DNA of 36,626 nucleotides from an uncultured Chloroflexota bacterium. Its GTDB lineage: Bacteria > Chloroflexota > Anaerolineae > Anaerolineales > UBA4823. The position numbers and the translations under genes are program-made. Positions 13,915 to 35,316 of this stretch are shown here, in pieces; position 1 is the stretch's first letter; every line of letters begins with the position of its first letter. The notes below the pieces were generated by a model that did no database searches, had not been told where the DNA came from, and was given only the letters and a program-made list of their open reading frames with translations. Location: contig CAIQIV010000345.1 in the NCBI GenBank assembly GCA_903871905.1, positions 1-36,626 on the forward strand. Direction: 5' to 3'.

Positions 13915-15156
13915 ATGGACAAGAGAGATATCCTTCTTTCTCCAATTAAGATCGGGACGCACACCTGTACAAACCGATTCTTCAGCCAGGCAATGGAGTG
14001 CAATGATGCAGATGCTGAAGGAAATCCGACCGACTTGACTTACCAACGTTATGAGAACTTGTTCAGAGGCGAGGCGGGGTTGATCAGTCTGGAAGCAATC
14101 ACCATCACTGATAAGAACCGCTCGCGAATGAACCAGTTGTTCATCATGCCCAAGAATCAATCCACGCTGGAGAAATTTGTGCGGCGCATGAGGGAAGTGA
14201 ATCCCAAGCCGCTTTTTATCTTCCAACTGACCCATTCCGGCGAGCTGTCCAACCCTGAATTTTCCAAGAGGCTTTCCGTCAGACCTCTGCCAGGATTCAA
14301 GGCAGATGTATTTACGGAAGACGAGTTTGAGAAGATCATGGACGATTTCGTCCTGGCTGCAAAAATGTCGTATGATGTCGGTGCCGATGGCATCGATATG
14401 AAATTCTGCCACGGATACCTCGGGTCCCAGATCCTACGCCCATATAATACTCGCAAGTGGAAATATGGAGGTCCCTGGGAGAATCGACGCCAGTTTGCAT
14501 TTGATCTCTACGAACGAATCCGCAAGGTTGTACCCGACGAGAAATTCCTGATCGGCTCAAAGATCTCCGTATGGGAAGGCTTCCCAGGCGGTTTCGGTAC
14601 TGCAGGGCCGGATACCCCGGTGATCGACCTGGCAGAGCCGATCGACCTGGTGAAAGGCCTGGAAGCTCGCGGAGCCCAGTATTTTATCCAGTCTGCTGGC
14701 AGCCCCTCCATCACCATTAGCCTTACCCAGGCAGATAAAGAGCACCCGTATTTTGCCTACCTGCACCAATATTTTGCCAAGGTGTTAAAAGAAAACCTGC
14801 AACCCCAGACGGTGGTGATTGGCTCGAACTACTCGGTGTTCGGCAAGGGCAAGAGCAAGTTGCAGGCAGTCAAGCCGGAGGACAGCGCCTTGTTGGCATA
14901 CGGTGCGCAAAATATTGAGAAAGGGTATGTGGATATGATTGCCCTGGGACGCCAATCGTTCGCTGACCCTTTGCTGCCATTAAAAGTTCGCGAAGGCCGG
15001 GAGAAAGAAATCAACTTCTGCACGACTTGTGACAACTGCCTGGAATTGCTTATCCAACAGTCTCCTATTGGTTGTGCTACCTACAATAAGATGTACACCG
15101 ATATCCTTGTGCAGACCCGTAAGGAGAAAGGCCGCCTGTCGGTTAAACACACCTAG
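13915..15156 (+). CDS. NADH:flavin oxidoreductase / Old Yellow Enzyme family
   Basis: TNRFFSQAMECNDADAEGNPTDLTYQRYENLFRGEAGLI; DGIDMKFCHGYLGSQILRPYNTRKWKYGG; C-terminal FCTTCDNCLELLIQQSPIGC. Confidence 0.85.
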   Translation: MDKRDILLSPIKIGTHTCTNRFFSQAMECNDADAEGNPTDLTYQRYENLFRGEAGLISLEAITITDKNRSRMNQLFIMPKNQSTLEKFVRRMREVNPKPLFIFQLTHSGELSNPEFSKRLSVRPLPGFKADVFTEDEFEKIMDDFVLAAKMSYDVGADGIDMKFCHGYLGSQILRPYNTRKWKYGGPWENRRQFAFDLYERIRKVVPDEKFLIGSKISVWEGFPGGFGTAGPDTPVIDLAEPIDLVKGLEARGAQYFIQSAGSPSITISLTQADKEHPYFAYLHQYFAKVLKENLQPQTVVIGSNYSVFGKGKSKLQAVKPEDSALLAYGAQNIEKGYVDMIALGRQSFADPLLPLKVREGREKEINFCTTCDNCLELLIQQSPIGCATYNKMYTDILVQTRKEKGRLSVKHT

Positions 15157-22567: not shown

Positions 22568-23158
22568 TTAATCTAGAGTGAGCATCGCGAGAATCATCTT
22601 ATAAGCTGTATTGAAATAGTCCTGCAAATCGATAGCTGTCTCATCCATCCGGTACTGCAGCGAGGCGCCGTCCATGATGGATGCCAGCAATGCAGGGATC
22701 AGGCTGGCCTGGATTCCCGAGAACTCGCCCTCCTGAATACCCTGGTCAATGACTCCCTTCACATCCTGGCGCCACTTCTGGTACATGCCGCTGATTTTGC
22801 GGCGGATTTCCTCGTCTGCGGTTCCCTGGACCCAGAAATCGAAAAAGATGACCACTTCCTTCTGGCGCTGGATTAACTGGATCTGCTGCTCAAAGAAATA
22901 ACACAGCTTATCTCGGGGAGGGATGGTCTGATCCTCCAGGATTGTCTTGCGCTCATCGACGAAAATATCCAGCAAATGGTCGAGAAGGGAGCGGTACAAC
23001 TCGTCTTTTGTTGGGAAATAGTAATGGAGATTCCCCTGGCTCATGCCAGCATTGCGCGCCACCTGGCGCAGGCGGGCGCCGCTGATCTTGTCGGTAAAAA
23101 TGGTCTCGAGTGCAGCATCCAGGATGATGCTGCTGGGATCGCTTTTTTCTCGGCTCAT
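22568..23158 (-). CDS. TetR/AcrR family transcriptional regulator
   Basis: GARLRQVARNAGMSQGNLHYYFPTKDELYRSLLDHLL HTH. Confidence 0.92.
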   Translation of the reverse strand: MSREKSDPSSIILDAALETIFTDKISGARLRQVARNAGMSQGNLHYYFPTKDELYRSLLDHLLDIFVDERKTILEDQTIPPRDKLCYFFEQQIQLIQRQKEVVIFFDFWVQGTADEEIRRKISGMYQKWRQDVKGVIDQGIQEGEFSGIQASLIPALLASIMDGASLQYRMDETAIDLQDYFNTAYKMILAMLTLD

Positions 23159-23239: not shown

Positions 23240-24184
23240 TCATTCTCGAGAATATGGTTTACCCAAAGCTTCTGGCGCCTGGGAGCGGGTGTGGCTCAGG
23301 ATTAAGGCCAGGATGGCGAAAAGGTATGGCAGAGCCAGGAAGATCTGGTAAGGCAGCTTGATGCCCAGGCCCTGCATCTGAAGCTGGAAGGCATCCAGGA
23401 AGGCAAATATTAACGCTGCCCACAAGATGCGCACCGGACTCCAATTCCCCGCAATCACCAGGACGATAGCCAGCCAGCCGCGTCCGGCAGAGATCTCTGG
23501 AACAAACACCCCTGCTGAGGCCAGAGTCAGGAAAGATCCGCCCAGGCCGCCCATCAGGCCGCCAAACAAGACAGAGAGGTATTGAATTCGCCCGACGCTG
23601 TACCCTTTCATATCTACTGCCTGTGGATTTTCCCCCAGGCAGCGCACCAGCAGACCATAACGGGTGCGGTACAGGAAGATCCAGATCAAAGGAACCAGGG
23701 CTAGGCCGATATAAGTCAGCAGATACTGGGCGAAGAGGATTTCTCCCAGGAAAGGGATGCGAGACAAGAGTGGAATTGGCAGTACATCGAAAATACGGGT
23801 GGTCGGGGTACTGGCGCTCCCAGAAGATCCATATGCCACGCGATACCAGTAAAAAGAGAGCCCTAGCGCCAGCAAGTTAAGAGCCAGCCCGGTAACGGTC
23901 TGATCCACTTTCAAGGTGACAGCCATAAAGGCCATAATGAGCGCCATGCCTGCACCAGCCAGCATGGCAGCCAGGGTCGCGAGAAAGAGTGAATCGGTCT
24001 GGTTTCCGACCATGAAACCAACGTAGGCGCCCATGAGCATCATGCCCTCGACGCCAAGGTTCATTACGCCAGACCTTTCAGTCACCAGTTCGCCCATGGC
24101 AGCGATCACGATAGGTGTGGCGATGCGGATAGTAGCCGCAAGGATGCTGATGATGATTGTCCATTGGAAAATATCTGTCAGCAT
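23240..24184 (-). CDS. ABC transporter permease, BMP/nucleoside-type importer (YufQ-like)
   Basis: TPIVIAAMGELVTERSGVMNLGVEGMMLMGAYVGF; AGRGWLAIVLVIAGNWSPVRILWAALIFAFLDAFQLQ. Confidence 0.92.
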   Translation of the reverse strand: MLTDIFQWTIIISILAATIRIATPIVIAAMGELVTERSGVMNLGVEGMMLMGAYVGFMVGNQTDSLFLATLAAMLAGAGMALIMAFMAVTLKVDQTVTGLALNLLALGLSFYWYRVAYGSSGSASTPTTRIFDVLPIPLLSRIPFLGEILFAQYLLTYIGLALVPLIWIFLYRTRYGLLVRCLGENPQAVDMKGYSVGRIQYLSVLFGGLMGGLGGSFLTLASAGVFVPEISAGRGWLAIVLVIAGNWSPVRILWAALIFAFLDAFQLQMQGLGIKLPYQIFLALPYLFAILALILSHTRSQAPEALGKPYSRE

Positions 24185-25254
24185 GGTTCGGCCTTCCGGA
24201 TCTGATACTTGGAGATGACGTCAGCGGTGAGCAGAAACAGCAGCACGATGGCCTGGATGGCATAAACAACTGCAACAGGAACGCCGGTAACGATCTGCAT
24301 CCGTACCGATCCGTTTGAGAGAGCGCCAAAGAAAATGGCAGCTAACACAACTCCAAAAGGATGCAGCCCTCCCAACATGGCAATAATGATTCCTGTAAAG
24401 CCGTATCCGGTAGTGATGTCCAGACGCATGCGGTGATGGAGCCCAGCCAGCTCCCCAGCTCCAGCAAGCCCAGCAATGGCTCCGCTCAGCATCATGACCA
24501 GGATTATGGTGTGCCCAATATTGGTCCCCTTGAAACGGCTGGCAGTCGGGTTTAAGCCTAAAGCGCGGATTTCAAAGCCAAAAGGCGTACGCCAAAGCAG
24601 GATGTAAAACACCAGGGCCAGCAGTAGAGCAAGGGCAAAGCCAATGTGCAGGCGGCTGTCCTGGACCAACAGGGGCAGGTACCCTGTTTTTGGCAATTCA
24701 GAAGTCTGTAAATAGAATGACTTGGGATCTTTCCATGGACCCGACAGGACAAAGGACAGCATATAGCGCGCAATGTAATTTAACATGACTGTGACGATGA
24801 TTTCGTCAATTTTCAAGCGGGCCTTTAGAAAGCCGGGTATCCAACCCCAAATTGCGCCTCCCAATGCCCCAGCAGCCAGGAGACCAGTCACCATAGCAAA
24901 TTTTGGCAGACCAGGAAGGTAAAAAACGACGGCGTAAGCGGCCATAGCCCCCAGAATTAACTGACCTTCAGCCCCGATATTCCAGATGCGGGCGCGGAAG
25001 GCGATGGTTGCTGCCAACCCGGTAAGAATGAGGGGTGTTGTCTTGACCAGTGTTTCGGTGAAAGAGGTTGGGCTGCCAAATCCACCTCCAAGAATGGCGG
25101 TAAACGCCTCCGAAAGATTGGCTTTCGCACTCATAATCAGGATGGATGAGACGACCATCGCTGCCAGAAGAGCGATCGCCAACGAGCCTGCATGAACCCA
25201 GGGGGTCACCTCCGGCCGGCGCTCAATTTTATACCCGATTCGTTCCAGGATCAT
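24178..25254 (-). CDS. ABC transporter permease, BMP/nucleoside-type importer (YufP-like)
   Basis: ETLVKTTPLILTGLAATIAFRARIWNIGAEGQLILGAMAAY; GYGFTGIIIAMLGGLHPFGVVLAAIFFGAL. Confidence 0.92.
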   Translation of the reverse strand: MILERIGYKIERRPEVTPWVHAGSLAIALLAAMVVSSILIMSAKANLSEAFTAILGGGFGSPTSFTETLVKTTPLILTGLAATIAFRARIWNIGAEGQLILGAMAAYAVVFYLPGLPKFAMVTGLLAAGALGGAIWGWIPGFLKARLKIDEIIVTVMLNYIARYMLSFVLSGPWKDPKSFYLQTSELPKTGYLPLLVQDSRLHIGFALALLLALVFYILLWRTPFGFEIRALGLNPTASRFKGTNIGHTIILVMMLSGAIAGLAGAGELAGLHHRMRLDITTGYGFTGIIIAMLGGLHPFGVVLAAIFFGALSNGSVRMQIVTGVPVAVVYAIQAIVLLFLLTADVISKYQIRKAEPC

Positions 25255-26789
25255 GTCCCCTCCCGGACCCCGGCCATGAGCAGGCCAATGCTCTGAATAT
25301 CTGCGTCCGCCTGGGCAAACTGCCCGATGATCTCACCCTTGAAGAAGACCACGATATGGTCTGATAGGCTGAGAATCTCATCCAGGTCCTCAGAAATCAG
25401 AATAATACCGACCCCTTGCTGGCGCTGTTCTAATAAACGGCGATGGACATACTCTGTAGCGCCTACATCCAGGCCGCGAGTGGTCTGGTTGGCGATCAGA
25501 CAGCGTGGTCGCGCAGAGAACTCGCGCGCCAGGATCACCTTCTGCAAATTTCCACCTGATAAGGTGCGTGTAGTTTGCAGCGGTGAGCGTGCAGCAATTT
25601 CGAATTGCTGGATGCATTCCTGGGCGAAAGCTCGAATTTTCTTGAAATCCATCAGCCCCTTCTGTTTGAACCGCTGCTCATGTTGCAGTCCCAGAATCAG
25701 GTTTTCCTCAATAGTGAAATCGGGGACCAGACCCTCTTCCAGCCGGTCTTCTGGAACCTGCGCCAGGCCCATGCGAGCGATTTCCCGGGGAGTATGCCGG
25801 GTAATCTCCTCACCAGCCAGCAGGATCTTCCCCTGTGTGGCAGGACGTACGCCCACCAGAACTTCAAAAAGTTCTTTTTGTCCGTTCCCTGAAACACCCG
25901 CAATTCCGATCACCTGGTTCTGGCGCACAACTAGGTCAATGCCGCAAACTGCCTCCTGGCCTTTATCATTCATAGCATGCAGCCCGTGGATTTCAAGAAT
26001 GGGCGGCCCAGGATTGATTTCTTCTTTTTCGACTTTGAAAACCACTTCCCGACCTACCATCAAGCGGGCTAAATCTTGGGGGGTGATATCGGCGGTTTGA
26101 ACTGTGCTGACCAGCCTGCCCTTGCGCAGCACCGAAACGCGGTCTGAGACACTCATCACCTCTTTTAGCTTGTGGGTGATAAATAAGATGGACAGTCCCT
26201 GCTGTTTCATGCGCCGCAATATGGTGAACAGCTTTTCTGCCTCCTGCGGAGTAAGCACGGCAGTTGGCTCATCAAGGATCAGCAGCTCCACGCCCATGTA
26301 AAGGGCTTTCAGAATTTCCACCCACTGTTGCTCACCCACAGAAAGCTGCCAGATGCGGGCGTTAAAATCCAGGTGCAAGTCATAGTTGTTAGCCAACTCC
26401 TTCAATCGCTTCTCAGAAGCAGGAAGGTCCAGGAAGAAGCGGGTGGATCCAACCCCGGCGATGATATTTTCTAAGACGGTCAGGGGCTGGACCAGGACAA
26501 AGTGTTGGTGTACCATGCCTATTCCCAGTTGTATGGCATCACTGGGGGAGCCCAATCGGACTTCATGCCCCTTGAAATAGATCTTTCCAGAATCGGGGGT
26601 CAAAAACCCATACAGGCATTCTGCCAATGTGGATTTTCCTGCTCCGTTTTCGCCTAACAAGCAGTGCACCTCACCTCTGGCTATTTCCAGGTGGATGCAG
26701 TCGTTCGCCGTTATCTGGGGAAAGTGCTTGGTCAGGTTGTCCAGGCGTAAGAGTGGCGGCTGGCTGGCAGGTTCTGAGGCTTGCTTCAT
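25251..26789 (-). CDS. ABC transporter ATP-binding protein with two nucleotide-binding domains (YufO-like)
   Basis: GENGAGKSTLAECLYG Walker A, LSVGEQQWVEILKALYMGVELLILDEPTAVL, second half GVSGNGQKELFEVLVG and LSGGNLQKVILAREF. Confidence 0.93.
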   Translation of the reverse strand: MKQASEPASQPPLLRLDNLTKHFPQITANDCIHLEIARGEVHCLLGENGAGKSTLAECLYGFLTPDSGKIYFKGHEVRLGSPSDAIQLGIGMVHQHFVLVQPLTVLENIIAGVGSTRFFLDLPASEKRLKELANNYDLHLDFNARIWQLSVGEQQWVEILKALYMGVELLILDEPTAVLTPQEAEKLFTILRRMKQQGLSILFITHKLKEVMSVSDRVSVLRKGRLVSTVQTADITPQDLARLMVGREVVFKVEKEEINPGPPILEIHGLHAMNDKGQEAVCGIDLVVRQNQVIGIAGVSGNGQKELFEVLVGVRPATQGKILLAGEEITRHTPREIARMGLAQVPEDRLEEGLVPDFTIEENLILGLQHEQRFKQKGLMDFKKIRAFAQECIQQFEIAARSPLQTTRTLSGGNLQKVILAREFSARPRCLIANQTTRGLDVGATEYVHRRLLEQRQQGVGIILISEDLDEILSLSDHIVVFFKGEIIGQFAQADADIQSIGLLMAGVREGT

Positions 26790-26829
26790 GAAAGATTCAT
26801 TCCATTATCTATTCCGGGACAGGGAAGAA

Positions 26830-26863
26830 GCGCCCTGGCAGCATAAGTGCCAGCCAGGGACGC
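26830..26863 (-). terminator. Intercistronic hairpin between BMP lipoprotein and ATPase genes
   Basis: CCCTGGC (26833-26839) / GCCAGGG (26853-26859), flanked by GCG/CGC; no T-run, so more likely attenuator or RNA-stabilising stem-loop. Confidence 0.45.
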
Positions 26864-26887
26864 CTCAATATTACCACGTAAGGATGA

Positions 26888-28006
26888 TCAATCCGACTTG
26901 GGTGGACCCAGTTTTAGCTCTACTTTTAGCTTGCCGTCCAGGATATCCTGGCGCATCTGATTGACCGTCTGGAGCAGCTCGGGAGGCAGGGTTTTCTCAA
27001 AGTTGTGCCAGGGGGCGATATCCCCGGATCCCTTGCTCATTGGGAACCAGATTGGGTCCATCGGAGCATTATAAGGTTTTCCCTCCGTAGCATGTTTCCA
27101 CCATTCGTCGATCAGGTACAGGATCAGCGGATCCCATTTAAGGATGGTGCTGTTGATCACTACATCTGGCGACAGGGGATTCTGGTCCTCATATTGGCCG
27201 AAAGCAAAGACCTTCTTCTCTGCGGCTGCCTCAAAGGGTCCCTGGCGCTCGGCATAGATATGGTCGGCGCCGGCCGCGATCAGGGCGTAAGTAGCTTCCT
27301 TGGCTTTGGGAGGATCATACCAGCTTTCGATAAAGGTGATCTTGGCCTTGACATTCGGGTTGACCGCTTTGGCGCCGTCGATGTAGGCGTTGAGCACATC
27401 ATTAACGTCGTCGTAAGGGAAGCCGGCTACTGCACCAATTACGTTGGACTTTGTGTTCATGCCAGCAATGACACCCAATAAATAAGCTGGCTCATGGACA
27501 TGGTTGTACACCCAATATGCATTTCCACCCAGGGCTGAGTTTCCAGAACCGGTGAATGCCCAAAGGATGTCAGGATATTTATCTTTCAGGTTTTTTACCT
27601 GGTCGGAGTAAGAACTGGCGCCCCACAGGATCTGGTACTTTCCCGTTTCAGCATATTCACGCAGTGCGCGCTCGGCATCATCGCCCCACACATTTTCAGT
27701 ATAATCTAAGGTAATCTTCAATCCGTGCGGACTCTGGCTTTTAATGCGCTCCATGGATTGGATTAAAGCTTTATACCAGGCTTCATCTACTGTAGATCCA
27801 AAGACCGCACCAATTCTGAGCTCGGTAGGTGCAGCAGCCTGGGCCGGGGCTGTGGTCGGCGGGGTAACTGGAGCTTCTGTAGCAGCTGCAGGCGCCTGCG
27901 TGACTGCCGGAGGCGGAGGGGCTTGCGTGGCTGGTGGGGTGCAAGCCGAGAGTAACAATACGGTTACCAGGACAAGGCACAGGGTTTGCCAAAATTTCTT
28001 CAACAT
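26888..28006 (-). CDS. BMP family ABC transporter substrate-binding lipoprotein
   Basis: Lipobox LLLSAC followed by a Pro/Ala/Thr-rich linker; GAVFGSTVDEAWYKALIQSMERI; DILWAFTGSGNSALGGNAYWVYNHVHEPAYLLGVIAGM. Confidence 0.92.
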   Translation of the reverse strand: MLKKFWQTLCLVLVTVLLLSACTPPATQAPPPPAVTQAPAAATEAPVTPPTTAPAQAAAPTELRIGAVFGSTVDEAWYKALIQSMERIKSQSPHGLKITLDYTENVWGDDAERALREYAETGKYQILWGASSYSDQVKNLKDKYPDILWAFTGSGNSALGGNAYWVYNHVHEPAYLLGVIAGMNTKSNVIGAVAGFPYDDVNDVLNAYIDGAKAVNPNVKAKITFIESWYDPPKAKEATYALIAAGADHIYAERQGPFEAAAEKKVFAFGQYEDQNPLSPDVVINSTILKWDPLILYLIDEWWKHATEGKPYNAPMDPIWFPMSKGSGDIAPWHNFEKTLPPELLQTVNQMRQDILDGKLKVELKLGPPKSD

Positions 28007-28128: not shown

Positions 28129-28788
28129 TCAGGTAGGGATCCCTAGCAATTTCTTGCATAAATCCACAGCCGCAGCGGCGTCCTTGGCATATCCATCGGC
28201 GCCAATTTCATTTGCCCAATCCAGGTCAATACAGCCTCCGCCGATGATTATTTTGTAATGATTGCGAGAGCCAGTCTCAACGAACAGATTCAGCGTGCTA
28301 CGCGTTGCGGGGCGCGTTGTTGTCATCAAGGCAGACATCGCTACAATATCCGCGTTTTCTTGCTGAGCAGCATCCAGGAATTTGCTTGGAGCCGCATCGC
28401 GGCCAATATCAACTACTTTGAACCCATGAGAGCTCAAAAGGGTGTTGACAATATTTTTCCCGATATCATGAATATCATTCTGTACGGTGCCGAGGACGAT
28501 GGTTCCAAGGGAGGCTGTTTTCCGTCCTGAGGCGCTGATCGCTTCCTCCAGGATGCGAGTAGCAGCCTGGGCTGCATCCCCGGCTGCCATGAGCTCGGGC
28601 AGGAAGATCTCGAATTCTTGAAACTGGCAGCCAACATCGCTGAGTGTGGGGACCAGGATGGTCTGGATCAGGTCCAGGGGATCTTCTCCCGCGGCTAATG
28701 CCTGACGGGTGAGGCTTTCGCTTTCTTCCAGCAGTCCCTGCTGCAAGGCCTCTTTCAAATCATTGCGGAATTTCTCAGAATTTCCCAT
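28129..28788 (-). CDS. Methyltransferase cognate corrinoid protein (MtmC/MttC family), copy 1
   Basis: B12 motif DIHDIGKNIV, cap domain FEIFLPELMAAGDAAQAA, IIIGGG. ATG at 28788 overlaps the upstream methyltransferase stop. Confidence 0.93.
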   Translation of the reverse strand: MGNSEKFRNDLKEALQQGLLEESESLTRQALAAGEDPLDLIQTILVPTLSDVGCQFQEFEIFLPELMAAGDAAQAATRILEEAISASGRKTASLGTIVLGTVQNDIHDIGKNIVNTLLSSHGFKVVDIGRDAAPSKFLDAAQQENADIVAMSALMTTTRPATRSTLNLFVETGSRNHYKIIIGGGCIDLDWANEIGADGYAKDAAAAVDLCKKLLGIPT

Positions 28789-30181
28789 CGTAGTGTACCT
28801 TCCTCCAGCCTGCATCAAGATCAAGACCCATCTTTTTCAATTCGTCTCGCACGTGGTAGTATACACCCAGCCATTCTTCACCTGGCTCCAGGGTGTCTGC
28901 GTTGTAAAGCTGTGCAAAAGGTTTTCCCCGGTTGGGTTTTCCCAGGCAGTGTTCATAGTGACTCAGGCATTCCAGGGCGCATTCATTGACCTGGGAACGA
29001 GACATTCCCAGCGCTGCATGGGCCACTTCAGCCTGGAAGCGCGCCTCCAAGCCGCTTGTATGGTCCATTTCACTGCCGACGGTAGCCCCGACCCCATGCT
29101 GGTGCAGACCGCAAACTGCGCCAATCATTGCTCCGGCAGCCACTTCCCACAGGACATCTGGAGTGCCCAGGCCTGAGACCGGGTAAATATCGTTAACCGA
29201 AACCAGCGGGGTTTGGCTGGCCAGCGCCTGCCCGGCGACTGCCTGGATCCATAAACCCATACGGTCTGTATTATTACTGCGCATCAGGTGCATGTGACCC
29301 ATGAAGTGGTAAGAAGCGCGATAGCATATGACACCCAAAAGGTGGCTGGCAACGGTGACAATGGCGGTGCCTTCAGCCCCGCCTCCAAGTCCTCCGATTA
29401 GCGGGGTCATCAAGTCTACGATGTGCATCCCGATGCTGCTCAGGTGGGCTACACGGGACAACTGGTCGTAATTGGTTTTCAGTTCTGGCATCTGGGCGAT
29501 GAGCAGCCCGTCGGATGGACGCAGCCCAGCTTCTGGGTCCAGGCTGGCCAATTTACCCGTGCAGGTGAGGGAAACCGCATTGTCTTCAATATGCATGCCA
29601 GGGCGGCCTGCCTTGCGTACAGCCTCCCGGGCTAGTGCTGCCTCAGAGCGAGCAGCCAGGACTTCGAGCGGTGAGCCGGCGATGATTGCCTGCCCCATGT
29701 AGGTTGAGATCGAGCCATGTCCCAGGCAGTCGACCAGCGGCTCCTGGGCACAGCTTTGCAAGATCAAAGGGTGGTATCGCTCGCTGCACGGCGTGCCGGT
29801 TGGTCCGCTGTGCATCCGGCAGGGCTCGAGGCTCTCGATCTCGCGGTGTTTCTCCACCACGGTATCCTTTCCAGCTCCTAATATAACCGCATAGGGAGCA
29901 GAAGCAACGGCCTCAAGGACTTCAGCCCTGCTAAAGCGGATGCAGCGCTCGGTGCTCTGGTTGTATGCACCAAGCTCAACGAAAAGATCAAGAGCTGCCT
30001 GGAACAATCGGTAGGGTAAATCCTCTTCGGCGGGTACCAAAACTTTAGGATTGAATTTAATCTGGTACTGTTGGGTTAATTCTCGTGTGCGCCGGCTGAG
30101 TGTCCGGTCAAAATCCGCCTCACGAAGATAAGGGCCATTTTCTGAGCGTTTTACGATTTCTGGCAGCCAGTTGCTTTGCAT
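28775..30181 (-). CDS. MtmB-family (monomethylamine methyltransferase-like) corrinoid methyltransferase without pyrrolysine, copy 1
   Basis: ILGAGKDTVVEKHREIESLEP, SGPTGTPCSE, AGRPGMHIEDNAVSLTCTGKLAS, HTSGLEARFQAEVAHAALGMSRSQVNE; resembles remembered M. barkeri MtmB (VLGTGRDAV, GGPTGSPISE, AGRPGMGV-Pyl-GPETSLSAQGNIS, TTGMEARMMGEVARATAG). Confidence 0.88.
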   Translation of the reverse strand: MQSNWLPEIVKRSENGPYLREADFDRTLSRRTRELTQQYQIKFNPKVLVPAEEDLPYRLFQAALDLFVELGAYNQSTERCIRFSRAEVLEAVASAPYAVILGAGKDTVVEKHREIESLEPCRMHSGPTGTPCSERYHPLILQSCAQEPLVDCLGHGSISTYMGQAIIAGSPLEVLAARSEAALAREAVRKAGRPGMHIEDNAVSLTCTGKLASLDPEAGLRPSDGLLIAQMPELKTNYDQLSRVAHLSSIGMHIVDLMTPLIGGLGGGAEGTAIVTVASHLLGVICYRASYHFMGHMHLMRSNNTDRMGLWIQAVAGQALASQTPLVSVNDIYPVSGLGTPDVLWEVAAGAMIGAVCGLHQHGVGATVGSEMDHTSGLEARFQAEVAHAALGMSRSQVNECALECLSHYEHCLGKPNRGKPFAQLYNADTLEPGEEWLGVYYHVRDELKKMGLDLDAGWRKVHYDGKF

Positions 30182-30289
30182 CTCTATTGCTCCGGGTAGT
30201 TATAGGGGTTCAATGGTGGTGTTCCCATAAACTCTATGGCTATTTGTTAAGGATGATTCGGACAATTGAACGATAGCTTTGTAGATCGT

Positions 30290-30310
30290 ATTCTCGGTCA
30301 AACCGAGAAT
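30290..30310. promoter_or_regulatory. Candidate TetR-type operator in divergent intergenic region
   Basis: ATTCTCGGT-CAA-ACCGAGAAT, perfect 9-bp inverted repeat. Confidence 0.65.
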
Positions 30311-30314
30311 CAAG

Positions 30315-30326
30315 TGACAATTGTCA
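30315..30326. promoter_or_regulatory. Second palindrome in divergent intergenic region
   Basis: TGACAATTGTCA, perfect 12-bp palindrome; core GACAATTG also occurs at 30261-30268. Confidence 0.5.
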
Positions 30327-30465: not shown

Positions 30466-31401
30466 ATGAATGGTTCAGCCAACCAGGAGTTTGTATTCAC
30501 GCGCCAGATCATCCTCAGCGCGGCAAAAAATGTGTTGGCGACAAGGAAGGTGAGTGGGACACGCATGCGCCAGGTTGCAGATCGTGCAGGGATCAGCCTG
30601 GGAACTTTGCATTATTATTTCACCTCCAAAACTGGCTTGCTGCTGGCTGTCCTGGATGATATGCAGCGGTTTTTTGAAATGCGCCAAACCCAGTTGATGG
30701 CTCATGATCTGGATGTGTTGGAAAAGGTCAGGTTATTTTCGTCGCAGCAGCAGCAACTCCTGGAGGATTTGCCGCAAGTGGAGGAGATCTTCCTTGATTT
30801 TTGGGGGCAAGCATTAGTGGATGAGCAGATCCAGGAGAAGATTCGGGCAATGTATTCTGCCTGGCGCAAGGATATTTTTATTTCGGTCCAGATGGGGGTT
30901 GATCAAGGGATATTCAATCCGGGTAGGGCATCCCTCGCTCCTTATCTACTGGTTTCGATGATGGAAGGGACTGCGCTGCAATACCTGCTGGACGAAGAAC
31001 AAGTGAACCTGGAGGAGATGTTCCAGGCGGTGTACCAGCTTATTATCCACTGGCTGCAAGGAGGAGAAGTTGTATCAGAAAGAATTGATCCTATGGCAAT
31101 GGATACAATGGGAAGGAAGAAGTATCCCAGCGACATTTCTGATGAGCAGTGGGAAAAGCTGAAAGGGGTCCTGCCAACGGCAAAAGGAGGGGGACGTCCG
31201 CGTTCCACGGACCTGCGGGAGGTGGTCAACGCACTGCTTTACCTCGCAGCTGTGCGCTGTCCCTGGCGCATGCTGCCACATGATTTGCCTGGCTGGCAAA
31301 CGGTATATGCTTACGCTCGGCAGTGGGAGCAGGCAGGGGTGCTGGAAAAAGTCAGTAACCTTCTTGGAATAGACCGGATAAATTTCATGGTTGGACAGTG
31401 A
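30466..31401 (+). CDS. TetR family regulator fused to an IS5/IS402-type DUF4096 transposase N-terminal domain
   Basis: N-term SGTRMRQVADRAGISLGTLHYYFTSKTGLLLAVLDDM; C-term KYPSDISDEQWEKLKGVLPTAKGGGRPRSTDLREVVNALLYLAAVRCPWRMLPHDLPGWQTVYAYARQWEQAGVLEKV in the same uninterrupted frame. Confidence 0.88.
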   Translation: MNGSANQEFVFTRQIILSAAKNVLATRKVSGTRMRQVADRAGISLGTLHYYFTSKTGLLLAVLDDMQRFFEMRQTQLMAHDLDVLEKVRLFSSQQQQLLEDLPQVEEIFLDFWGQALVDEQIQEKIRAMYSAWRKDIFISVQMGVDQGIFNPGRASLAPYLLVSMMEGTALQYLLDEEQVNLEEMFQAVYQLIIHWLQGGEVVSERIDPMAMDTMGRKKYPSDISDEQWEKLKGVLPTAKGGGRPRSTDLREVVNALLYLAAVRCPWRMLPHDLPGWQTVYAYARQWEQAGVLEKVSNLLGIDRINFMVGQ

Positions 31402-31471: not shown

Positions 31472-31500
31472 TTGACAATCTGAACAATTATCTGTATACT
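31472..31500 (+). promoter_or_regulatory. Strong sigma70-type promoter of the second methyltransferase operon
   Basis: TTGACA (31472-31477), 17-nt spacer, TATACT (31495-31500). Confidence 0.75.
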
Positions 31501-31648
31501 AAAATTAGTTCGGTCAGTTAATCAAAAATCAAACAGGTAATCCCATTCTATCGAGGCACAGGAGGTCACCTCTCACGTAAATGCACCAGTTCCACCGATG
31601 CGGATTTCGTATAGTTTATTAATCGCAAGCGAAAAGGAGTTTCCTGTA

Positions 31649-32311
31649 ATGATCCCCGCCCAAATTGCTGAAAAATTGAGTCTTGCCCTGGAGCAGGGCG
31701 ATAAGGATGCCGCAGTCGCGGCAACAAAAGAAGCCCTGGAACAGGGTGTGGCCCCAGTGCTACTGGTGCAAGAGGTTATTGTGCCGGCCCTGACGCGGGT
31801 CGGAGATGCGTTTGAGAACCTGGATATTTTCCTGCCAGAATTGATGGCTGCAGGAGAAGCGGGCAATGCATGCACGGCATTGATTGAACAAGCCATTTTG
31901 AAAAGCGGCGACCAGATGCGATCCGAAGGCACGGTGGTGCTGGGTACCGTCAAGGGGGATATCCATGATATTGGCAAGAACATTGTTGCCAGCTTGTTGA
32001 AGGCCCAGGGATTCAAGGTATTTGACCTGGGGAAAGACGTTTCTGCAGCCGCCTTCATCGACGCCGCCGAGACCAATAATGCGGATATCATCGCTGCCTC
32101 AGCACTGATGAGCATCACCCGCGCCGGCGCCCGGGATGTGGCCGTACTGCTGCGCGACCGGGGGATGAAAGATAAATACTTCTATATCGTGGGGGGCGGT
32201 TCGATTTCACAAGATTATGCAGATGAGATCGGCGCAAATGGTTTTTCGGAAACTGGCAGCGGGGCAGTCGAACTGGCGAAATCCCTGATGGCCAAAAAGA
32301 GAGGAGCTTAG
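31649..32311 (+). CDS. Methyltransferase cognate corrinoid protein, copy 2
   Basis: LDIFLPELMAAGEAGNACTALIEQA; GDIHDIGKNIVASLLKAQGFKVFDLGKDV; AAAAGGAG RBS before 31649. Confidence 0.93.
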   Translation: MIPAQIAEKLSLALEQGDKDAAVAATKEALEQGVAPVLLVQEVIVPALTRVGDAFENLDIFLPELMAAGEAGNACTALIEQAILKSGDQMRSEGTVVLGTVKGDIHDIGKNIVASLLKAQGFKVFDLGKDVSAAAFIDAAETNNADIIAASALMSITRAGARDVAVLLRDRGMKDKYFYIVGGGSISQDYADEIGANGFSETGSGAVELAKSLMAKKRGA

Positions 32312-32313
32312 CC

Positions 32314-33708
32314 ATGTTCGGAAACGATCGAATGAGTGAAATCTTCCTGCGCTCCCGCACGGGGCAGTTCATGAAAGAGGTCGAATTTGACCTGATGCTG
32401 GCCCGACGCACAAATGAGCTGGTCAAGGAATTCAACATCCCGTTCAATGCCAACCTGGTGTGTCCGGCGGATGATGACCTGGCGGATCGCGTTTTCGAGG
32501 CTGGCTTGCAGCTCTTTGTGGATATCGGCGCTTACCACCTGGACACCCAGCGGGTGCTGAAATTCACCCGCCAGGAGATCCTGGACGCGCTGCGCCTGGC
32601 GCCGGATACCCTGTATCTGGGCGAGGGTCGGGACATGGTGATTGCCCGTCATCGAGGGATCGAAGACCCGAATCCATCGCTGAACCTGACCGGCCCGGCT
32701 GGGCAGCCGTGCAGCGAGGAATTTTATCTGCCGCTGATGATCAGTTATGCCCAGGAACCGTATGTGCATGCCATTGAATCCGGCGCTACGCTGACCTTCA
32801 ATGGTTATGACATCATGGCCAACACCATGACCGAGGTGATGGCGGTGCAGCGGGACAGCGCCACCGCCCGCGAGGCGATCCGCCGGGTGGGGAAGCCTGG
32901 CATGCACATCGGCGATTGCGCCACGGGGATGACTGCCATCGGCAAGATGGCAGCCAGTGACCCGGTGCACTGCCTGCGTCCTTGCGATGGGCGCCTGGTG
33001 GCCCAGATGTGCGAAATGAAGATCAACGATGACCAGTTAGCGCGCGTGCCTCACCTGCGCAACTATGGCTCACACATCATCAACCTGATGACCCCGCTTA
33101 CGGGCGGCATTGGCGGTGGCCCGGCTGGCGTGGCCGTTGTCTCGGTAGCCGAGACGCTGATGGGCGTGGTGTGTTATTTCGCCACCTACCATTACTTGAG
33201 CATCACCCACATCAAGTGGACAAATAACTCGGATCCCTGGGGCATGTACGTGCTGGCGATGGCCGGGCAGGCCATGGCACGCAACAGCCACATTGTCTGG
33301 ACCAATGACCCCTTCAACGTCAATGGCGCGGGCACGGTGGAGAACCTCTATGAGGTAGCCGGGCATGCCATCATCGGCGCGGTGTGCGGCTACCAGCAGC
33401 ATGGGGTAGGCAGCACCGGGGGTAACATGGTAGACCACCACACCGGCCTGGAAGCCGGCTTCCAGGGAGAGGTGGCCGTGGCGGCGACGCGCAGCGGGAT
33501 CACACGTGAGAAAGCGAATGAGATTGCCCAGAAGCTGCTGCCGCTGTACAAGGACACCTTCAAAAGCCCGAAGCTGGGCAAGCCCTTCAATGAGCTGTAT
33601 GATGTCAAGACGATCACCCCGCACCAGGAATGGCGCGACTGTTACCGCCAGGCCAAGGACACCCTGAGCCAGATGGGGTTGAACTTCGCGGTGGGTCCCT
33701 GGGACTAA
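32314..33708 (+). CDS. MtmB-family corrinoid methyltransferase without pyrrolysine, copy 2
   Basis: YLGEGRDMVIARHRGIED, LTGPAGQPCSEEFYLPLMISYAQEPYV, VGKPGMHIGDCATGMTAIGKMAASD, HTGLEAGFQGEVAVAATRSGIT, GKPFNELYDVKTITPHQEW (MtmB: GKTFQECYDVKTVTPTEEY). Confidence 0.9.
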   Translation: MFGNDRMSEIFLRSRTGQFMKEVEFDLMLARRTNELVKEFNIPFNANLVCPADDDLADRVFEAGLQLFVDIGAYHLDTQRVLKFTRQEILDALRLAPDTLYLGEGRDMVIARHRGIEDPNPSLNLTGPAGQPCSEEFYLPLMISYAQEPYVHAIESGATLTFNGYDIMANTMTEVMAVQRDSATAREAIRRVGKPGMHIGDCATGMTAIGKMAASDPVHCLRPCDGRLVAQMCEMKINDDQLARVPHLRNYGSHIINLMTPLTGGIGGGPAGVAVVSVAETLMGVVCYFATYHYLSITHIKWTNNSDPWGMYVLAMAGQAMARNSHIVWTNDPFNVNGAGTVENLYEVAGHAIIGAVCGYQQHGVGSTGGNMVDHHTGLEAGFQGEVAVAATRSGITREKANEIAQKLLPLYKDTFKSPKLGKPFNELYDVKTITPHQEWRDCYRQAKDTLSQMGLNFAVGPWD

Positions 33709-33760: not shown

Positions 33761-33773
33761 TGGAGAATATGTG

Positions 33774-34652
33774 ATGCAAACAAAACTCAGAAGCACTTCC
33801 AAAGAAATCACGCTGGATACGCGCGGCCCGGTAGCCATCATCGGGGAGAGCATCAACCCCACCCGGCGCAAAAAGCTCACCACCTCGCTGATGTCCCAGG
33901 ACTTCACCTATGTGTTTGAGTTGGCGAAGATCCAGATCGATACTGGCGCGGATATCCTGGATGTTAATGTGGGCGCTCCCGGAGTAGACGAGATCGACCT
34001 GCTGCCCAAGGTGGCTCGCGCTGTGGCGGAACGCTTCGATATCCCGGTGTGCCTGGATTCGTCCAACCGGGAGGCGCTGATCGCTGCTCTTTCCGTGATG
34101 CCAGGGAAGCCGCTGGTCAACTCAGTGAATGGTGAAGAGGCGTCGCTCAATGCTGTGCTGCCGATCGTCAAGGAATACGGCGCGGCGGTGATCGGATTGA
34201 CCATGGATGATGAGGGCATCTCCAATGACCCCGAGGTGCGCCTGAGCGTGGCGGGCAAGATCCTGGAGCGGGCGGCGAAGCTCGGCATCCCGGCGGAAGA
34301 CGTGGTGATCGACCCGTTGGTGATGACCGTAGGCGCCGATCAGAAAGCCGGGTTGGTAACCCTGACCACCATTGAACTGGTACGCAAGGAGTTCGGCGTC
34401 AACATCAACCTGGGCGCCAGCAATGTCTCCTTTGGCCTGCCGGACCGCCACACGGTCAACCAGGCATTCCTGGCTCTGGCGGCCTATGCCGGGGCAAGCT
34501 GCGTGATCTCCAACTCTGAGAAATTGACAACCACCATCCGGGCAGCTGACCTGCTGCTGGGGCGCGACCCCCATGCCGGCCGCTATATCACCAGTTATCG
34601 CAAAATGGTCAAGCTGGGCCTGATCGAAGATGCCAAAGCTGGAAAATCTTGA
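33774..34652 (+). CDS. Methyltetrahydrofolate:corrinoid methyltransferase (AcsE/MtgA-like, pterin-binding)
   Basis: VAIIGESINPTRRKKLTTSL; GADILDVNVGAPGVDE; CLDSSNREALIAAL; LVNSVNGEE; NINLGASNVSFGLPDRHTVNQAFL. Confidence 0.92.
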   Translation: MQTKLRSTSKEITLDTRGPVAIIGESINPTRRKKLTTSLMSQDFTYVFELAKIQIDTGADILDVNVGAPGVDEIDLLPKVARAVAERFDIPVCLDSSNREALIAALSVMPGKPLVNSVNGEEASLNAVLPIVKEYGAAVIGLTMDDEGISNDPEVRLSVAGKILERAAKLGIPAEDVVIDPLVMTVGADQKAGLVTLTTIELVRKEFGVNINLGASNVSFGLPDRHTVNQAFLALAAYAGASCVISNSEKLTTTIRAADLLLGRDPHAGRYITSYRKMVKLGLIEDAKAGKS

Positions 34653-35316
34653 GATTCATATCGACGCGGATGCCGTGCTGCGCGGCCAGGGTGCGAACCC
34701 GGCTATCATCCGCAGCCGGCGTCCGGCATTGGTGAGCCTGGCGGAGCAGGCAATCCAGGAAGGCCTGCCGCTGGTGGAGCCGAGCGTGGTGATGCGCCAG
34801 TATTCCATCGAAGAAGTGCGGCATGAGCGGTTGCTGCTGGACGGCGGCAGGCAACTCCCGGGAAAACTGCTGGTGCAGCATCTGGGCCAGGCACGCCAGA
34901 TATATGTGCTGCTGTGTTCGATCGGCGCCTCACTGGAGCGGTATTCCCAGGAAATGTGGAGCTCCAGCGCCACCTATGCGCTGGCCCTGGATGGGGTCGG
35001 CTCGGCGGCGGTGGAGGCGCTGGCAAATGCCGCCTGCCGCTTCCTTGAGGACCAGGCCGCTGCCCAGGGCTGGAAAAGCTCGGTGCCCCTCAGCCCGGGG
35101 ATGGTGGATTGGCCGGTGGAAGTGGGCCAGCCGCAGATCTTCCAGCTCCTGGATGAGGAAGCCGCCGGGGTTGACCTGACACAGAGCTTCATTATGGTCC
35201 CGCGCAAGTCCTTGACCATGGTGGTGGGGGTTGGCCCAGATCTGGAGATGGGCGGGCGCACCTGCGACTTCTGCAGTCTGCGGGAAGTATGCCGCTACCA
35301 GGACCATTACGCCTGA
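34630..35316 (+). CDS. MetH activation-domain-like (vitamin B12-dependent methionine synthase activation) protein
   Basis: YVLLCSIGASLERYSQEMWSSSATYALALDGVGSAAVEALANAA; SPGMVDWPVEVGQPQIFQLLD; terminal CDFCSLREVC cluster. Overlaps previous gene by 23 bp. Confidence 0.8.
   Translation: MPKLENLEIHIDADAVLRGQGANPAIIRSRRPALVSLAEQAIQEGLPLVEPSVVMRQYSIEEVRHERLLLDGGRQLPGKLLVQHLGQARQIYVLLCSIGASLERYSQEMWSSSATYALALDGVGSAAVEALANAACRFLEDQAAAQGWKSSVPLSPGMVDWPVEVGQPQIFQLLDEEAAGVDLTQSFIMVPRKSLTMVVGVGPDLEMGGRTCDFCSLREVCRYQDHYA

Follow-up and report, generated by a model that had tools for sequence, protein, structure and literature searches.

Within the window, the whole 36,626-nucleotide stretch of DNA from an uncultured Chloroflexota bacterium that was analysed here, a gene for a TetR-type regulator with a C-terminal DUF4096 domain lies between two operons that encode MtmB-type methyltransferases and corrinoid proteins, one divergent and one downstream. 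The genes and protein features at this locus are as follows.

22568..23158, minus strand: tail-less TetR paralogue; its orthologue in the second fusion genome has the shared operator upstream
28129..28824, minus strand: corrinoid protein of the divergent operon, similar to the window's second corrinoid protein
28775..30181, minus strand: MtmB-type (non-pyrrolysine) methyltransferase, candidate divergent target (PF05369, E 6.9e-98)
30466..31401, plus strand: fusion gene (311 aa), a TetR regulator carrying DUF4096 at its C-terminus; single open frame
30511..30651, plus strand: TetR_N HTH DNA-binding domain, residues 16-62 (PF00440, E 2.4e-12)
30784..31032, plus strand: TetR_C_6, BetI-type ligand-binding core, residues 107-189 (PF13977, E 8.5e-10)
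31063..31116, plus strand: linker of ~18 residues (200-217), fast evolving, 29% identity over 17 aligned codons
31135..31353, plus strand: DUF4096 domain, residues 224-296, the N-terminal domain of IS5-type transposases (PF13340)
31192..31203, plus strand: GRPR motif, residues 243-246, within AKGGGRPR, invariant in both known tails
31363..31374, plus strand: LGID, residues 300-303, after DUF4096, common to both fusions and absent from the transposase consensus
31598..32311, plus strand: downstream operon's corrinoid protein, which could also start at 31646 (B12-binding, PF02310/PF02607)
32314..33708, plus strand: second MtmB-type methyltransferase (PF05369)

The regulator part scored 46.8 bits against PF00440 (cut-off 24), which places it in the TetR_N HTH family, and 47.3 bits against the NCBIfam BetI equivalog model, below its threshold of 201.3; on these profile scores the TetR core is BetI-like, yet it is not BetI, the choline-responsive repressor. 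The ATG at 30466 is the start codon matched by the start of the relative described below, and GTG and ATG alternatives also exist further upstream. A preliminary description of this DNA had placed a TetR core and a nearly complete DUF4096 domain in one frame with no DDE catalytic domain, and this was borne out: the frame 30466-31401 is uninterrupted, PF13340 is matched over positions 1-75 of its 76 (E 2e-25, well outside what chance would give), and the protein lacks the DDE part, since the NCBIfam IS5_3 transposase model (NF033580) is matched at positions 1-80 of 258 only (85.1 bits; cut-off 110). Searches with full-length Chloroflexota transposases (tblastn), which did match the tail itself, found no DDE remnant downstream of the fusion in either genome that carries it. 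The same description was right that the paralogue at 22568-23158 ends without the tail, but its strand had to be corrected to minus. The window protein truly belongs to the TetR family, though its extension is unusual, and it is no transposase; a whole-genome search identified its DUF4096 domain as the sole one in the 6.1-Mb assembly. The positions of the GRPR motif are each 81-91% conserved in transposases, and the motif appears AT-hook-like, its role being presumed from its sequence.

Both MtmB-type enzymes were classed as non-pyrrolysine because no internal stop interrupts their frames. Further genes of the neighbourhood include a Pterin_bind methyltransferase (33771-34652) and a BMP/PnrA-like ABC transporter (23240-28006), which, together with the MtmB pair and the corrinoid proteins, probably make up a pathway whose substrate is a quaternary or methylated amine or an N-methyl compound. 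Beside the methyltransferase lies a 228-aa protein (34630-35316) that has no Pfam match and is 73% identical in the second fusion genome, a possible corrinoid activation or accessory protein, and a serine dehydratase alpha-chain-like protein (PF03313; 20870-22546) adjoins the tail-less TetR gene.

The same fusion, 56% identical over 308 aa, is present in Chloroflexi bacterium RBG_16_57_11 (G031, locus L002), which belongs to another genus of the same family; every one of the five gap positions in the alignment falls in the linker region. The divergent MtmB neighbour is equally placed there and 79% identical, and its corrinoid protein 76% identical. The second methyltransferase operon, which adjoins the fusion in the window and lies ~6 kb off in RBG_16_57_11, is 73-87% identical (MtmB 87.5%, corrinoid protein 83%), and the tail-less TetR paralogue has a 67%-identical orthologue. 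Directly after the RBG_16_57_11 fusion (L002:5930-8119:+) there is a protein resembling the large subunit of xanthine/aldehyde oxidoreductases, which is absent at this place in the window and may hint at a heterocyclic N-methyl substrate.

We found no third TetR-DUF4096 fusion among about 1,100-1,200 sampled Chloroflexota genomes, drawn from partly overlapping sets at the level of family (38 genomes), order (399), class (396, sampled) and phylum (399, sampled); other matches in these sets were tail-less TetRs or IS5-type open reading frames. The fusion was likewise absent from plasmids at a coverage of at least 80% and from phages, and scanning 85,462 species genomes for a pattern, an approach limited to close relatives, revealed no further case. 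MtmB copies of at least 79% identity occur in just the two fusion genomes among the 399 of the order, the next copies being at most 67% identical. Three of these distant MtmB loci were inspected, in G003, in G030 and at a further copy in the window's own genome: the regulators there are GntR-type by sequence resemblance, and none of the three has TCGGTCAA in front of MtmB. A 500-aa open frame before DUF4096 in L057 has no upstream domain and was rejected as a fusion. In two genomes of the same phylum (G979 and G1055), an HTH_29/HTH_32 region, of the kind found in IS630 transposases, precedes DUF4096 in one frame (L060:907-1752:+ and L061:1501-2346:-), with ~40 aa after the domain and, in G1055, two equal-scoring copies; these are either composite IS or IS5 elements with an extra N-terminal HTH.

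When the two fusions are compared part by part, the TetR core and the tail are equally conserved, with amino acid identities of ~59-60% and 59%, and the linker reaches 29%. With the fusion known from two genomes, one pairwise comparison underlies the selection figures, which for the tail are pN 0.29, pS 0.70, dN 0.36 and dS about 2 (synonymous sites near saturation) and for the linker dN 1.2. Neutral simulation at d=1.98 gave a mean amino acid identity of 8% and a maximum of 19%, with a stop in 98% of runs. Judged by this comparison, the tail is under purifying selection.

To these figures can be added the phylogenies of both parts. Among 50 DUF4096 domains placed in one tree, the two tails group as sisters (support 99/97) relative to 48 transposase domains, on a stem of 0.52 substitutions/site, and the TetR cores of both fusions are likewise sisters (100/99), within a clade that also takes in the tail-less paralogues, a regulator of G128 and two more. 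These topologies point to a single capture of the tail by a TetR regulator, long ago, and the sister placement of both domains, together with the shared flank, rules out convergent fusion in two genera. Both tails keep the transposase-conserved residues Y220, P221, D223, W229, R251, N255 and Y259, as well as GRPR 243-246, W267-R268, P271, W277, V280, Y281, W287 and G291, and both depart from the transposase consensus at R262, G264, F284, R288 and W293 (the last being L in both). The shared pattern thus indicates that the core of the domain was kept while some transposase-conserved residues were released, and the released residues plausibly served contact with the catalytic part in transposases. 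Using the pattern GAGxxTGTxTGAAAAG, derived from related IS elements, we found no IS5-type terminal repeats near the fusion gene, and only a chance-level match at 15049.

The preliminary description had wavered between exaptation of a transposase domain and a frozen IS insertion, and had suggested a search for the domain pair elsewhere and Ka/Ks over the tail as checks; tail-less orthologues in all close relatives, or IS ends of a recent insertion, would have refuted it. The search yielded one further case, RBG_16_57_11, which is also the sole other genome with a close MtmB; the tail has the dN and dS given above; and no IS ends mark a recent insertion near the gene. A recent insertion or pseudogene tail is ruled out by the fusion in a second genus, the conservation and sisterhood of the tails, and the absence of IS ends and of a DDE remnant. 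The idea of a frozen insertion was rejected on the same grounds, and exaptation is supported by the syntenic second fusion, the purifying selection and the single origin of the tail.

Between the divergent genes, the intergenic regions of both genomes share an alignable block of 75-80 bp (score 46; best of 500 shuffles 28), and TCGGWCAA occurs twice in both, exactly 36 bp apart, a pattern matched by none of 100,000 shuffles. The candidate regulatory sites are as follows.

30258..30273, plus strand: candidate operator O1, imperfect 16-bp palindrome TCGGACAATTGAACGA; the same site is in L002 at 4817
30290..30310, plus strand: candidate operator O2, perfect 9-3-9 inverted repeat ATTCTCGGT-CAA-ACCGAGAAT
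30310..30319, plus strand: conserved box TCAAGTGACA beside O2, in both fusion promoters
31509..31523, plus strand: operator-like TTCGGTCAGTTAATC, separated by 8 bp from the preceding -10 of the downstream operon; conserved in RBG_16_57_11 at 45636

O1 is the only exact match in its own genome, and in each of the two genomes it begins exactly 36 bp ahead of O2; O2 contains TCGGTCAAA (30294-30302), which is common to L002 at 4853. The downstream operon has a promoter of the form TTGACA-17-TATACT (31472-31500), and the related site TTAGTTCGGTCAGTTAATC lies just past its -10 in both genomes. The sequence TTCGGTCAATTAATC stands before the tail-less TetR gene of RBG_16_57_11 and, in G128, between a TetR gene and a corrinoid gene; the 15-base core occurs once in the window's own genome, twice in RBG_16_57_11 and in 0 of the 36 other genomes of the family. 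Given that the TCGGTCA half-site is common to tail-less TetRs, it is most likely the TetR head that reads it; the downstream site could serve the tail-less paralogue rather than the fusion. The TCAAGTGACA box and the double site were found with the fusion only, the box being absent beside the operators of tail-less relatives, and the box is a candidate contact of the tail.

Structural comparison of the full-length model (mean pLDDT 62.5) with known structures recovered TetR structures, the best at E 1.6e-5 with probability 1.00, and the target-normalised TM ranged from 0.62 to 0.86 among the 50 TetR structure matches listed. Among these fold matches is 4nel, a TetR with a ligand given as 'N,N-dimethylmet...', which we take to be trimethylamine. 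The tail model is of moderate confidence (pLDDT 71) and matched no known fold, and no DUF4096 relative of solved structure was found, including by a profile search of the PDB; DNA binding by the tail is therefore proposed by analogy. Residues 238-268 of the window protein carry a net charge of +4, and GRPR and nearby basic residues are kept in both tails; the RBG_16_57_11 tail as a whole has a net charge of -1.

We propose, with a probability of about 0.72, that the fusion is a selection-kept TetR/BetI-type repressor of MtmB operons whose captured DUF4096 tail adds a second contact. A TetR/BetI-type repressor gained an IS5-type DUF4096 domain at its C-terminus once, long ago, and selection kept the fusion: the sequences show one frame in two genera, syntenic neighbours, a common origin, purifying selection and the loss of IS ends and DDE part. 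The mechanism is a proposal. The TetR head would bind the TCGGTCAA-type operators O1 and O2, 36 bp apart in the divergent promoter. With less certainty, it would also occupy the related site that directly follows the downstream operon's -10, and the bound regulator would repress the corrinoid-dependent MtmB-type methyltransferase operons. By motif and family resemblance, derepression may follow when a small methylated or quaternary amine enters the BetI-type pocket. Repression of methyl transfer that is released by an amine is likely because of the MtmB matches, the BetI-type core, the 4nel match and the substrates of MtqB, a non-pyrrolysine MtmB homologue that acts on tetramethylammonium and choline (PMC13044021). 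The tail, on its flexible linker, would hold two adjacent dimers on the sites 36 bp apart, whether through DNA, by way of the GRPR arm and helices and perhaps the TCAAGTGACA box, or through protein-protein contact.

The nature of this second contact allows two readings. By analogy, the protein may hold two DNA-reading modules, the TetR head on TCGGTCAA and the tail on the adjacent box (TCAAGTGACA) or bridging the spaced sites, a proposal that we make tentatively. It is also possible, short of probable, that the tail serves only to multimerise the regulator through protein-protein contact, joining TetR dimers into tetramers on two sites and leaving DNA untouched, much as DUF4096 would aid transpososome assembly in IS5 transposases. 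The TCGGWCAA pair, spaced alike in both promoters, would suit such tetramers, and so would the slightly acidic RBG_16_57_11 tail and a tail model that offers no fold evidence for DNA binding, but the GRPR stretch retained with its basic surroundings and the TCAAGTGACA box conserved beside O2 in the fusion promoters both count against this reading.

The other explanations concern the tail as a mobile-element part or as a product of its own. The transposase origin of the domain and its conserved GRPR/WR core would fit a tail that tethers the regulator to the ends of IS5-type elements or brings it to IS copies, the protein thereby also controlling or sensing mobile elements; we consider this highly improbable, in that the genome has no other DUF4096 gene, IS5-type terminal repeats near the gene are no more frequent than chance, and the tail has changed at positions that transposases keep. 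A functionless read-through from a frozen or recent IS insertion could account for the transposase-like start MGRKKYPSD that is still legible in the window copy, but it is scarcely credible against a 56%-identical fusion in another genus with a tail conserved like the core, a neutral expectation of 8% identity with stops, and missing IS ends and DDE remnant. Separate production of the tail from an internal start, to act alone, was suggested by three ATG codons that precede the domain in the window copy (cluster at 31094-31109); a poorly placed ribosome site, with AAGGAGGAG ending ~25 bases before the first ATG, and an RBG_16_57_11 copy with no ATG at that place leave this idea with next to no plausibility.

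The preferred reading, a repressor with a captured tail, has parallels in several known systems. Like BetI/FadR-like TetR regulators (PF00440 and PF13977), the window protein combines an HTH with a ligand core beside a divergent catabolic operon with candidate palindromic operators near promoters, but it differs in its extra C-terminal DUF4096 on a linker. With IS5 transposases (NF033580; PF13340) it shares 75 of 76 domain positions and the conserved aromatic/GRPR/WR core, whereas the fusion is single-copy and is without DDE part, terminal repeats or the consensus residues at R262/G264/F284/R288/W293. In animals, new transcription factors are known to arise when a transposase domain and a host regulator are fused, and vertebrate host-transposase fusion transcription factors, arising by transposase capture, were reportedly described by Cosby et al. 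in 2021. The window protein resembles these in joining a host regulatory domain to a transposase domain under selection, and it differs in being bacterial, with no splicing, an IS5-type domain and only putative DNA binding by the captured part. TldR proteins derive from the transposon nuclease TnpB. They are described as RNA-guided transcription factors (PMC13418256), and they are alike in that a mobile-element-related protein regulates bacterial genes, and different in that a whole RNA-guided protein was repurposed, as against a domain fused to a classical regulator here. Phage Mu Ner, SfsB and antitoxin-derived regulators also bring DNA-binding parts of mobile genetic elements into host regulation (PMC8987985), as whole small proteins in contrast to the transposase-domain fusion described here.

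The window protein shows the hallmarks of a host-transposase fusion, namely a regulatory and a transposase domain within a single protein that is conserved and under purifying selection, and on present evidence it would work like a host-transposase fusion regulator, making the fusion in effect a bacterial transposase capture. In the open-access literature we found no paper in which DUF4096 and TetR appear together; DUF4096 itself is mentioned in just two, one of which lists it only among domains of suspected spurious proteins. Since orthologues occur in two genera, each genome also has a tail-less paralogue that can serve as a natural control, and the candidate operator region is short, the contribution of the tail is directly testable, and the fusion would open DUF4096, a common transposase domain, to experiment. 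Because the fusion is conserved across genera and kept by selection, it looks like a mobile-element part recruited to the control of methyl-compound genes, and, if the reading with two DNA-reading modules is true, it would be a prokaryotic counterpart of vertebrate transposase capture.
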